From positions 1-21,714 of the IMG/VR virus record IMGVR_UViG_3300031669_000267: a stretch of 21,714 nt of DNA; one strand, given 5' to 3'. Positions 1-4,200 of the stretch are shown here, in pieces (within the stretch, counting starts at the first letter, position 1; each line of letters begins with the position of its first letter). The notes beneath the pieces were generated by a model, which was not told the origin of the DNA, ran no database searches, and was given only the letters and a program-made list of their open reading frames with translations. The DNA is from a virus. Position numbers and translations under genes: made by a program.

Positions 1-176
1 GCGCCAGCTGTCGCCATGGTGCCGAGGAATTTCATGAACCGGACGATTCCTTGCGCCGTCTCCCATGCCTCGACCAGTCCGCGTACCTGCTGATTGAGGT
101 CGCGTACCTCGACGCGTAGCGCATGCATCTCGCGCTGCCATTCCGGGGAATCGGGGCTGATTGGGTCGGGTGTCAT
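1..176 (-). CDS. Partial lysis-region protein, probably membrane-anchored (holin-like position)
   Basis: The gene starts with ATG at 176 behind a strong GGAGG ribosome site and runs off the left edge, so only about 58 residues are seen. The visible part is a charged, probably coiled-coil N-terminus (MTPDPISPDSPEWQREMHAL...) followed by the start of a hydrophobic stretch (FMKFLGTMATAG) that looks like a transmembrane helix. Small phage proteins with a charged coiled coil followed by one helix often sit in lysis cassettes. The position, second gene after the late promoter/terminator, fits that. The function is an inference from position; the rest of the protein is needed to tell holin, antiholin or structural accessory protein apart. 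Confidence 0.6.
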   Translation of the reverse strand, partial: MTPDPISPDSPEWQREMHALRVEVRDLNQQVRGLVEAWETAQGIVRFMKFLGTMATAG

Positions 177-467: not shown

Positions 468-656
468 TTACTCGGCATCTAGTTCGCGCAGTACAAGCTC
501 CTGACCTTCCCAGATGACGCATTCATGCGCGCTGATGGTGTCCTCAGCGACTTCCTTCAGGATCGTTTCGTTGCCGCTGGCAATCATGCGGTGCAGGATG
601 ACGGCCTTCTTGCCTGGCATGACGTGCGGGAAAACAACTCGAACTGTGGTTGCCAT
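468..656 (-). CDS. Small late-operon protein, 62 aa, unknown function
   Basis: The ATG at 656 has a CGGAG ribosome site 7-10 nt upstream, and an upstream in-frame start at 710 would place the start inside the terminator hairpin, so 656 is preferred. The product (MATTVRVVFPHVMPGKKAVI...VLRELDAE) is a compact soluble protein with a beta-rich look and no cysteines beyond one. It is the first gene after the Q-like late promoter and terminator, so it should be expressed late, next to the lysis genes. I do not recognise a named family. Confidence 0.72.
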   Translation of the reverse strand: MATTVRVVFPHVMPGKKAVILHRMIASGNETILKEVAEDTISAHECVIWEGQELVLRELDAE

Positions 657-671
657 TGCGAACTCCGGACG

Positions 672-700
672 TAAAAAGCCCCGCTGGTTAGGCGAGGCTT
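672..700 (-). terminator. Intrinsic terminator (tR'-like) before the late genes
   Basis: The minus-strand transcript can fold AAGCCUCGC (700-692), loop CUAACCA (691-685), GCGGGGCUU (684-676): nine pairs with one U-G wobble, followed directly by U residues. It is a textbook intrinsic terminator about 60 nt downstream of the promoter at 740-768 and 16 nt upstream of the first late gene. In lambdoid phages a terminator at this place is what Q protein overrides. Confidence 0.75.
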
Positions 701-739
701 CGGGGTGCATTTGCTCCGGTGGTGGCGAGCGTCAAGGTC

Positions 740-768
740 ATTGTAGAAATTAAATGGTAGGCAAACAA
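740..768 (-). promoter_or_regulatory. Candidate late promoter (pR'-like)
   Basis: On the minus strand TTGTTT (768-763) is separated by exactly 17 nt from TACAAT (745-740), a five-of-six match to the sigma-70 -10 element. Transcription would start near 733. The promoter sits in the only gap after the 22-gene leftward run, between the Q-like gene and a terminator, the place of lambda pR'. The -35 matches only three of six positions, which is common for Q-dependent late promoters but also limits certainty. Confidence 0.6.
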
Positions 769-776
769 CTACCGTT

Positions 777-1421
777 TTACGAGGCAGCAGCCGACATTTG
801 CCGCTTTGCGTCCGTTAGTTCGTCATTGCACCGGCTGAACATCCATTCGTAAGGTTGCTCCCACAACTGCCTGTAGCTCTGGTGCTTCATCCGTAGCTGT
901 GCGGCACGCCAGACCACGCCGCGAATCGTGTGGCCGGTTCCGGCACAGCGCATGCAGCCTTTGGTCGGGTTGGCCGGATCGATCCCGCGCCCTTTGCAGT
1001 CAGGGCATATCCGCAGGTCGGTCAGCTCGTTCACGACGGCCTTCCGGATGAGGCTGTAGGTATCGTCGATGCGCGGCCACATGCGCCTTTGTGCGCGATG
1101 CAGTTCGGCACTAGCGAGCTGCCGCTGGCGCGTCGTGTCGGCAGTCTGCTCGTGGATCTGAGCGGTCACCAGCGTGTCCATCCGATCGCGCCATTCGCCG
1201 AACTGCAGATCTACAAGGCATTTGTCCAGATCCGCAGCCGTCAACTTGGCGCCGTCAGGCCACCATACCCGACAGAGCAATTCTCGGCCGATGCCCGCCG
1301 GAACGAAGGCGATCGACGCGGCAATGTCCTGCTGCGTCAACTCCTGAATTCCTCCTGAGCCGATATCGAACCGGGCGTTCTTGGCGTTCAGCCGTGCGAG
1401 CAGGTAAGCGGGGTGCGTCAT
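777..1421 (-). CDS. Q-like late antiterminator with DnaJ-type zinc motif
   Basis: The 214-aa product starts at ATG 1421, which overlaps the preceding stop as ATGA; the upstream in-frame ATG at 1475 lies inside the previous gene. Residues 139-162 form a zinc module, CPDCKGRG then CMRCAGTGH, four cysteines at 139, 142, 156 and 159. Q antiterminators of the phage 21/82 type carry CxxCxGxG pairs of this kind in a similarly sized protein. It is the last gene of the leftward run and is followed at once by a promoter, a terminator and late genes, the site where Q acts. Function is inferred from motif plus position. A generic zinc-ribbon regulator is the alternative. Confidence 0.62.
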   Translation of the reverse strand: MTHPAYLLARLNAKNARFDIGSGGIQELTQQDIAASIAFVPAGIGRELLCRVWWPDGAKLTAADLDKCLVDLQFGEWRDRMDTLVTAQIHEQTADTTRQRQLASAELHRAQRRMWPRIDDTYSLIRKAVVNELTDLRICPDCKGRGIDPANPTKGCMRCAGTGHTIRGVVWRAAQLRMKHQSYRQLWEQPYEWMFSRCNDELTDAKRQMSAAAS

Positions 1422-1615
1422 AGCGAAGCCCTCAGCGATTGCAGAATGGTGCGAATTCGGATGTTGTCGGCCCATTTCAGCCCCATGACGGGCTTCGGCG
1501 GGGTGGTGGCTGCCACACGTAGCGGTACGCGGTCGGCGGCGCGCTCCGTGGGCGTCAGAACGTCGGCGCTATGGCACGCACTGTCTGGGCGTGGCTGGCG
1601 GCCGGGGCGGATCAT
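1418..1615 (-). CDS. Small basic protein, 65 aa, unknown
   Basis: This frame is joined to both neighbours by 4-nt ATGA overlaps (stop of the nuclease at 1612, start of the Q-like gene at 1421), the main reason to accept it. The product is rich in arginine and proline in its first half and ends in a short amphipathic stretch (WADNIRIRTILQSLRASL). No motif is recognised. The composition is less typical of a folded protein than its neighbours, so it could be a short leader that keeps ribosomes moving into the Q-like gene. Confidence 0.55.
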   Translation of the reverse strand: MIRPGRQPRPDSACHSADVLTPTERAADRVPLRVAATTPPKPVMGLKWADNIRIRTILQSLRASL

Positions 1616-2325
1616 GCGGCTACCTTCCCAGCCATCTTTTTTCGAGTCTCGGCGAGAATCTGAGCGTAAACGTCGGGGTGCTGCTCATCGAAACGCGGTG
1701 CTTTTCCGGTAGTCCACTTCCCGCGCTCTAGTGGCTTCAGCCAGCCATCGCCAGCGCACCAGCGGCGCGGATCATTTCGGCAAAGTCTGACATCTTTGCG
1801 AGTAACGAAGCCCTGCACCTCGATCATTGCCAGCACGCGAAGCGCGCCGACTTTCCACGGGGATAGCGTGCGTGGTGACGGCACGCCGCAAGGCACGTCC
1901 GGAACGTAATCCGGCAGCTCGCAACGCTGCTTTGGGTTCCAGTCATGCAGTTCATGGTGATACGCATGCTGGCGCTCAAACTCCCATTTCGTCGTCGCGG
2001 AACGGCTCCAAGCTTTTCTCGCGACAAATACCTCGATGCCGAGGTGTGCGCAGATGTCATCAACACCTTCGTGCGATTCCGGGACAAGGATGGCGCGATA
2101 GTCGGGCCCACGTTCGGCGGAATAAGTGCAACCCTTCAACGCCTGCGCCAGCACCTTGATGTTCAGCGATAGCTTCGCCTCAATGCCGAGCTGATGCCCA
2201 TCCTCTGCAACCAGCAACATGTCCCATCCCGCAGTTTCCGGGTATACCGTGAAACCTTCGGCGACAGCCCATGCGGAAAAGGCTGCGCACAACTCTTCCT
2301 CGGTAGCAAATTTCTTCTCTCGCAT
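1612..2325 (-). CDS. PD-(D/E)XK nuclease-like protein with C-terminal winged-helix-like part
   Basis: The start is GTG 2328 or ATG 2325, nested in GTGATG over the upstream stop; ATG is used here (237 aa). The N-terminal half shows the order expected of a PD-(D/E)XK fold: a helix with acidic residues (EEELCAAFSAWA), then GWDMLLV with the aspartate, then GIEAKLS supplying E-x-K about 14 residues later, then a helix. The C-terminal third (WKVGALRVLAMIEVQGFVTR... followed by an arginine- and tryptophan-rich strand) looks like a winged helix. The layout resembles DUF2161-type putative phosphodiesterases. It lies among other recombination nucleases (RusA, Ref-like). Substrate unknown. Confidence 0.6.
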   Translation of the reverse strand: MREKKFATEEELCAAFSAWAVAEGFTVYPETAGWDMLLVAEDGHQLGIEAKLSLNIKVLAQALKGCTYSAERGPDYRAILVPESHEGVDDICAHLGIEVFVARKAWSRSATTKWEFERQHAYHHELHDWNPKQRCELPDYVPDVPCGVPSPRTLSPWKVGALRVLAMIEVQGFVTRKDVRLCRNDPRRWCAGDGWLKPLERGKWTTGKAPRFDEQHPDVYAQILAETRKKMAGKVAA

Positions 2326-2498
2326 CACGCCCTCGCCTTGCGCTTGGCCCGCTTCTCTGCACGCTTCATCTCAGCCACAAGCCCTTGCAGCTTGCGCACG
2401 TAGGGATCAGCGACCGCCAGCGGCAGCATCTTGTAATCAGCGCCGATGAAGATCGCCAGCTTGTTGTCGGCTATGCAGGCTTCGGGTTTGTATTTCAT
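2325..2498 (-). CDS. Small lysine/arginine-rich protein, 57 aa
   Basis: ATG 2498 overlaps the preceding stop by 4 nt (ATGA). The N-terminus (MKYKPEACIADNKLAIFIGA) is beta-like and the C-terminus is a strongly basic helix ending KRAEKRAKRKARA, suited to binding nucleic acid or acidic partners. No named family recognised. Confidence 0.62.
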   Translation of the reverse strand: MKYKPEACIADNKLAIFIGADYKMLPLAVADPYVRKLQGLVAEMKRAEKRAKRKARA

Positions 2499-3365: not shown

Positions 3366-3628
3366 CGGCACATCCTCGCAATCGTCTCGTCCAGTACGTC
3401 CATTTCAGTGAGCTTGTGGATCTTCCACATTGCCCGGTCGCCGTGGATGCCATGCGGCCCTTGATGACAGGATTTGCAGAGCGGCACGACGCAGTAGTTC
3501 CCTGCTCGCTGGCTCATGCCCTGGCCGGTGCGGACGTGGTGCGCGTCGCTGGGGCCTGCTTGCTCGCATACGCCGCACGGGAGTTCCTTGACGCGGAGCA
3601 TGTAGGCGCGTTCGGCGTTGGTGCTCAT
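3362..3628 (-). CDS. Ref-like (RecA-dependent) HNH nuclease
   Basis: The 88-aa product has a CGVC pair (residues 18-21), a double histidine in DAHHVRTG (29-36), [17 protein letters not shown] (47-63) and a closing helix [18 protein letters not shown]. This order is that of the Ref family of phage P1, HNH-type nucleases that bind zinc and cut DNA at RecA-made displacement loops. It is shorter than P1 Ref, lacking its long basic N-terminal extension, as are many lambdoid phage members. Its gene lies directly upstream of RusA, joined by ATGA, so the two recombination nucleases are made together. Confidence 0.8.
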
Positions 3629-4200
3629 TGGCGGGAAAACTCCCCAAAAATGGTTGATGCCTTTGCTGTATATGCTGCAGATGCTTCCTCGGGCGTCTCA
3701 AAAAGGCCAATGTATAAATTACGTCCATTCACCTGTATTTGGGCTACCCACTTGCGATAGTGCTTCGTCACGCCCTTGAAACCTGACGTGTTGTTTGCTT
3801 GCTTGCCTCTATTCGCACCATTTTTGCTTTTGGTTGCTTCGCGCAAATTGGATATGGCGTTGTTCGACGGATTGCCGTCAATATGGTCAATTAGATCAAC
3901 CATTACTCCGAACTCAAAAAACCATGCAATCCGGTGCGCATAGAAATCACACCCGCCAATCCTTATGACTCGATATCCTGATGAGTTGACGCTCCCAGCC
4001 AAAGAACCTTCGCGAGCTCTTGACCCGCCATTCGTTCGCCAAGTGAAAATACCTGTTTGACGGTCGTAATTAAGCCTTTCCGTGAAAGTCATGCCGCGTG
4101 CGGCTTTGCGGAGCTTCGTTTTACTCATAGCCCCATTTGATCGCGCGAGATCACGCCCCATTTGCCACAGCTCATCATCCGTACTGCGTCCGTCGCTCAT
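3625..4200 (-). CDS. HNH homing endonuclease with AP2 DNA-binding domain
   Basis: Residues about 86-128 form an HNH nuclease: YAHRIAWFFEFG, then DHIDGNPSNNAISNLREA (105-122). Residues about 139-188 form an AP2 domain (SGFKGVTKHYRKWVAQIQ, then YIGLFETPEEASAAY). Proteins of this build are selfish mobile endonucleases in phages. The gene is poorer in G+C than its surroundings: 26 of 60 bases at 3661-3720 against 37 of 60 at 4261-4320. The start at ATG 4200 has a GGAG site and an ATGA overlap. The first 24 residues (up to SNGA) do not belong to the nuclease; an internal ATG at 4128 begins the nuclease proper. It may be an inserted element that took over the first codons of an older gene. Confidence 0.88.
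   Translation of the reverse strand: MSDGRSTDDELWQMGRDLARSNGAMSKTKLRKAARGMTFTERLNYDRQTGIFTWRTNGGSRAREGSLAGSVNSSGYRVIRIGGCDFYAHRIAWFFEFGVMVDLIDHIDGNPSNNAISNLREATKSKNGANRGKQANNTSGFKGVTKHYRKWVAQIQVNGRNLYIGLFETPEEASAAYTAKASTIFGEFSRQ

Follow-up and report, generated by a model that had tools for sequence, protein, structure and literature searches.

A lambda Q-like protein and a candidate late switch with a palindrome on its -35 in a little-known phage family

The locus described here raises the question of whether the short region behind the last early gene of a virus works as a late switch of the lambda Q type and, if it does, where on the DNA its Q protein would bind. The window (the whole stretch of DNA analysed, a 21.7-kb virus record) holds one rightward operon and a leftward early operon, the last gene of which is a predicted Q-like antiterminator of 214 aa (minus strand, 777-1421; stop TAA at 779-777). 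Upstream of it we counted by eye 22 minus-strand ORFs, overlapping or abutting, from 11113 to 1418, whose products include a small transcriptional regulator, a replication initiator, a DnaB-like helicase and a RusA resolvase. The ORF list thus bears out the gapless 22-gene leftward operon ending in a zinc-motif Q-like protein that a first-pass annotation had described, and all of its coordinates proved correct when the minus strand was checked. Two other genes of the early operon deserve mention. One, two genes before Q (1612-2328, minus strand), encodes a conserved protein of phrog_15779, a group with no function assigned there, with a weak Pfam match to the pPIWI-associated REase domain (E 0.0065); the other (3625-4200, minus strand) is an HNH/AP2-type ORF that looks homing endonuclease-like by eye.

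A distant member of the lambda Q superfamily

The 214-aa protein carries a zinc motif, CxxCxGRG...CxxCxGxG, at residues 139-163, followed by a C-terminal helical (HTH) region, and the four cysteines of the motif are at least 90% conserved in the family alignment. It had been said to show little resemblance to lambda Q, which is true by eye and wrong in substance. Among the PHROGs it matches phrog_127, 'anti-termination protein Q-like' (E 1.8e-7, residues 139-212), a group to which lambda Q itself belongs at 7.6e-83 and which is matched by all 58 alignment rows of relatives (best 2e-28). A search of the PDB with the single sequence gave no match, and a profile of the 58 relatives found the lambda Q chains 7ubm, 7ubj and 4mo1 (E 4e-4 to 9e-4), with residues 137-212, which cover the zinc motif and the helices at the C terminus, aligned to lambda Q 116-204. 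Predicted structures were to be compared with known Q proteins according to the first-pass annotation, and an AlphaFold (AF2) model of the protein (pLDDT 87.8, pTM 0.80) places lambda Q in its loading complex (7ubn_Q) on top in Foldseek against the PDB (prob 1.00, TM 0.51-0.53, E 1.2e-3), as the sole credible match, with all others at noise. The second match in BFVD is annotated Antitermination protein Q (prob 1.00, yet E 0.04). Because of the phrog_127 match, the profile matches to lambda Q and the 7ubn fold match, the protein belongs to the lambda Q superfamily, as a distant offshoot, and is not unrelated to lambda Q. PF03589 was matched by only one of the 58 family members (E 0.002), and we therefore claim membership at the superfamily level only. 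Pfam and NCBIfam alone returned weak DnaJ-zinc and TIGR02642 matches; we rejected kinship with DnaJ, the link being merely the common CxxCxGxG motif. An Rfam search gave no match.

Relatives of the protein come mostly from environmental sequence. IMG/VR yielded 149 confirmed relatives, of which 80 were kept, and bacterial genomes added four loci (Rhodanobacter sp. B04, with a Q 77% identical, and Dyella and two Luteibacter at 35-40%). INPHARED held no recognisable copy at E 1e-5, no relative at E 1e-3 when two distant family members served as queries, and no usable relative in DNA searches. With none in INPHARED at E 1e-5 against 149 in IMG/VR, the possibility of a new Q lineage, raised in the first-pass annotation, is well supported, and judged from these searches the Q branch in the window is a little-known, previously uncharted family.

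Predicted promoter, leader and terminator in the window and in relatives

Immediately past the Q stop the minus strand reads GGTAGTTGTTTGCCTACCATTTAATTTCTACAATGACCTTGACGCTCG, followed by a hairpin at 700-673 and then by an ORF at 656-468. The putative promoter consists of a -35 hexamer TTGTTT (763-768, 3/6 consensus), whose geometry is conserved in relatives, and, after a 17-nt spacer, a -10 hexamer TACAAT (740-745, 5/6), which is (near-)invariant in the 12 closest loci. The hairpin, a predicted leader terminator analogous to tR', has a stem of 9-10 bp and a 7-nt loop, its arms AAGCCTCGC and GCGGGGCTT lying at 700-692 and 684-676 with one G.U pair; the RNA fold is -20.8 kcal/mol, and 10 of 200 shuffles were equally good. 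Five T flank it on the 3' side, and the free U tract is short because two of them (three with an extra G.U) pair within the stem. Of the nine-pair terminator with a U tract read earlier, the stem at 700-676 stands, and only three T lie past it. A consensus scan of the window neither reported a strict sigma-70 site nor picked up the terminator at 700-676, the weakness of the -35 and the shortness of the U tract accounting for this; we take the module as real because it recurs behind the Q gene of relatives. There too the leader is short, so that the leader of about 60 nt in the window is both real and typical of this Q family.

Downstream of the Q gene, most relatives combine an inverted repeat with a -10, which a short leader separates from a terminator. 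A strict detector, which required arms of 5 or more, a set spacing, at least 4/6 matches in the -10 and a terminator, found the module in 27 of 59 non-redundant downstream regions, as compared with 0/55 upstream, 1 antisense and a mean of 0.03 in shuffles; the 27/59 is a lower bound, as core arms of 4 bp keep the closest relatives (L002-L004) from being detected. Altogether a dyad at a fixed distance from the -10 is present in 41 non-redundant loci, with L002-L004, L028 and L040 placed by hand. This spacing is kept where genes intervene (about 470 nt from Q in L011, L015 and L016, about 800 nt in L067), and some relatives have no module within the first 1.1 kb downstream of Q. The hairpin, too, is kept close to the promoter, some tens of nucleotides away, and compensatory changes preserve its stem. 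We also searched IMG/VR in reverse, using four DNA patterns that describe the -10 and leader, CCCA upstream being an added requirement in one. All 35 modules recovered have a -10 and a hairpin, and with few exceptions a dyad is plain at 19-22 nt; a Q relative lies within 3 kb upstream in 28 of them and the other seven have at most 642 nt of upstream sequence, so the module adjoins Q wherever there is enough sequence. Homology, synteny and comparative DNA evidence thus all support the Q / pR' / tR' architecture proposed in the first-pass annotation. Some loci depart from the simple plan: L051, L056, L058, L059 and L060 have two tandem palindrome/-10 modules, about 10 and about 132-156 nt past the Q stop, L010 and L014 have an ORF between the Q promoter and the terminator (T5orf172/GIY-YIG-like by eye), and in L011, L012, L015, L016, L062 and L072 other ORFs lie between Q and the module.

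The start of the putative transcript is marked by TTGACGCT (728-735, minus strand), conserved in L002-L005. Q proteins are said to require a -10-like pause element (PMC9371919). Within the window GACGCT (733-728, about +1 to +6) is a weak candidate for it; a strict -10-like pause hexamer is absent there and in the closest relatives, by a cut-off that lambda's own AACGAT also fails. By the same cut-off 13 of 41 modules do have such a hexamer (1.7 expected), all of them (TACCAT, TATCGT and similar) from groups remote from that of the window; in the window's own subgroup the -10 is followed only by TTGACGCT, TCTGCCGCT or TCTGCCTCT. TTGACGCT (735-728) also resembles the -35-like element TTGACT that lambda Q requires, about 5 nt further downstream than in lambda, and is lost in sister groups.

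The palindrome on the -35 and its possible readings

Comparison of the relatives brought out a further feature, which the first-pass annotation had not noticed. The -35 lies in the middle of a palindrome, GGTAG-TTGTTTGC-CTACC (756-773, minus strand), present as a single copy within the window, with arms of only 5 bp and the right arm extending into the -35/-10 spacer. Across relatives the palindrome is centred 19-22 nt ahead of the -10, where its midpoint coincides with that of the -35 hexamer, and its letters differ among lineages (GGTAG..CTACC, GGCAGT..ACTGCC, TCGCA..TGCGA, TGGGTGGG..CCCACCCA, GTGCGGGG..CCCCGCAC) with both arms altered together. In the open-access literature searched we found no earlier description of a Q palindrome centred on the -35. 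This palindrome is probably the site that Q reads, as far as sequence comparison can tell, and we put the probability of a lambda Q-type late switch with its Q site there at about 80%. From these features we infer the following course of events. RNA polymerase would start near 733 from TTGTTT and TACAAT and would normally halt some 60 nt on, at the hairpin 700-676, so that the lysis and packaging operon stays off. As the product of the last early gene, the remote lambda Q superfamily member, accumulates, two Q protomers would occupy the palindrome at 773-756 around the -35, Q would load onto polymerase in the promoter-proximal region, and the Q-loaded polymerase would then pass the hairpin and later terminators and turn the late genes on. 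Counting against this explanation are the lack of a strict pause hexamer, a site that is not in the spacer, the weak -35, the short U tract and the 5-bp arms.

The same features can be read in other ways. The switch may be a Q switch in which Q binds the -35/-10 spacer as in lambda, the palindrome being the operator of another phage or host regulator. Known Q and AlpA sites do lie in the spacer (PMC6606751, PMC9371919), and a palindrome overlapping the -35 is what a repressor operator would look like. We nevertheless consider this unlikely, since the palindrome is inherited with the Q family in nearly every recovered module, conservation in an alignment of the 12 closest leaders is lower in the stretch of spacer that separates dyad and -10, and the palindrome changes in step with the C-terminal half of Q. 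In those 12 leaders, aligned without regard to structure, changes on both sides affect 6 of 8 pairs of the palindrome and 3 of 9 pairs of the terminator, and the covariation score is 0.41, as compared with 0.16 +/- 0.03 in shuffles (0/500 reach 0.41) and at most 0.11 in slid controls. Palindromes resemble one another in line with the C-terminal halves of their Qs (r 0.60; partial 0.45 with the N half controlled for) and show no such relation to the N half (partial -0.04 given the C half). The correlation with the C-terminal half may be inflated by linkage because that half is physically nearest the switch; leader similarity correlates with the C half as well (r 0.56). In L018, L026 and L044, with Qs 31-51% identical, near-identical leaders (TACAATGGTTCTGCCGCTTCG) come after three distinct palindromes.

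It is less probable again that the 214-aa protein is a classical activator that recruits polymerase from the palindrome, the hairpin being incidental or serving to end early transcription. The weak -35, the palindrome lying over it and the zinc motif of the protein would all suit such an activator, but homology and fold match an antiterminator, lambda Q, and a hairpin kept near the promoter with compensatory changes is needless for activation alone. The palindrome might, finally, be the stem of an intrinsic terminator for the early operon that overlaps the promoter by a coincidence of compact packing, and indeed a pattern scan flags 773-756 as terminator-like. However, at least five T within the 8 nt after the dyad occur in only 3 of the 41 loci, the tail being AAAAAA in one large group, so that the palindrome is not generally a terminator, and the distance between dyad and -10 is fixed even where the module lies 200-800 nt from Q. 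We rejected this reading as highly improbable, and return to the late switch with Q on the -35 palindrome.

Late genes and comparison with known antitermination systems

The first ORF past the terminator (468-656, minus strand; 62 aa, GGAG 6 nt ahead of its start) had no relative among the fetched loci by tblastn and is absent in the L002 sequence. Most of the late operon is outside the window, which ends about 470 bases past this ORF. The second late ORF (3-176, minus strand), of which 58 codons lie within the window, does have relatives at the same place past the switch (97% in L002, 62% in L004 and L013), and in L004 and L013 its counterpart stands between endolysin and packaging genes. Downstream of the module, L013, the prophage of Rhodanobacter sp. 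B04 with the 77%-identical Q, carries tRNA-Trp, endolysin, lipase, minor tail protein, TerS and TerL, its tRNA-Trp being at the same site as in L004. A tRNA gene just past the leader terminator, as the first late 'gene', was found in 8 of 34 loci scanned (L003, 3756-3830; L004, 3762-3837; L017, 3748-3899; L028, 3781-3855; L029, 3781-3856; L035, 1132-1207; L014, 7214-7288; L038, 3783-3858); these are mostly Gly-TCC, with Trp, Thr and Met as well.

The mechanism of Q antitermination is known from a few phages and their relatives, and the DNA site differs in each. The family of the window adds well over a hundred natural sets of Q, promoter and terminator from environmental phages and prophages, and because the sites vary with Q, comparing and swapping these sets could test how lambda-type Q recognises its DNA, what the -35 contributes to loading and whether a pause element is required. 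The module also lets late operons be found in unannotated metagenomic phages. As a wider and tentative proposal, to which we give somewhat less than even odds, one branch of the lambda Qs may bind a palindrome around the -35 as a twofold-symmetric pair and load only after sigma region 4 frees the -35, and its specificity may have diversified through matched changes of C-terminal domain and arms, giving many mutually insulated late switches.

Similar to the lambda Q / pR' / tR' system (PF03589, phrog_127), the locus combines a homologous zinc and C-terminal domain of the same fold, a Q gene that ends the early operon, and a short promoter-leader-terminator arrangement ahead of lysis genes. It differs in its leader of about 60 nt (about 194 nt in lambda), in a Q sequence so distant from that of lambda that it stays under the Pfam cut-off, and in the candidate palindrome, any dyad on lambda's own -35 measuring 3 bp at most. 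Whereas lambda Q, 21Q and AlpA bind within the spacer, the candidate site of this family is on the -35. Phage 21 Q (PF06530) shares the plan of promoter, candidate pause region and terminator and would share the use of two protomers on a two-part site; the protein had no relation to the window Q in the searches run, and its QBE consists of two direct TGAGCA repeats inside the spacer rather than an inverted repeat on the -35 (PMC6606751). AlpA of Pseudomonas aeruginosa is likewise a promoter-bound antiterminator with a terminator right downstream, its site being a single GGGACG in the spacer bound by one protomer (PMC9371919). GafZ of the Caulobacter gene transfer agent is similar in that a palindromic promoter site has been reported for an antiterminator; that palindrome lies between the -35 and the -10, and GafZ reportedly does not resemble known Q proteins (PMC11150451), whereas the candidate palindrome described here is centred on the -35 and follows the gene of a lambda Q relative.
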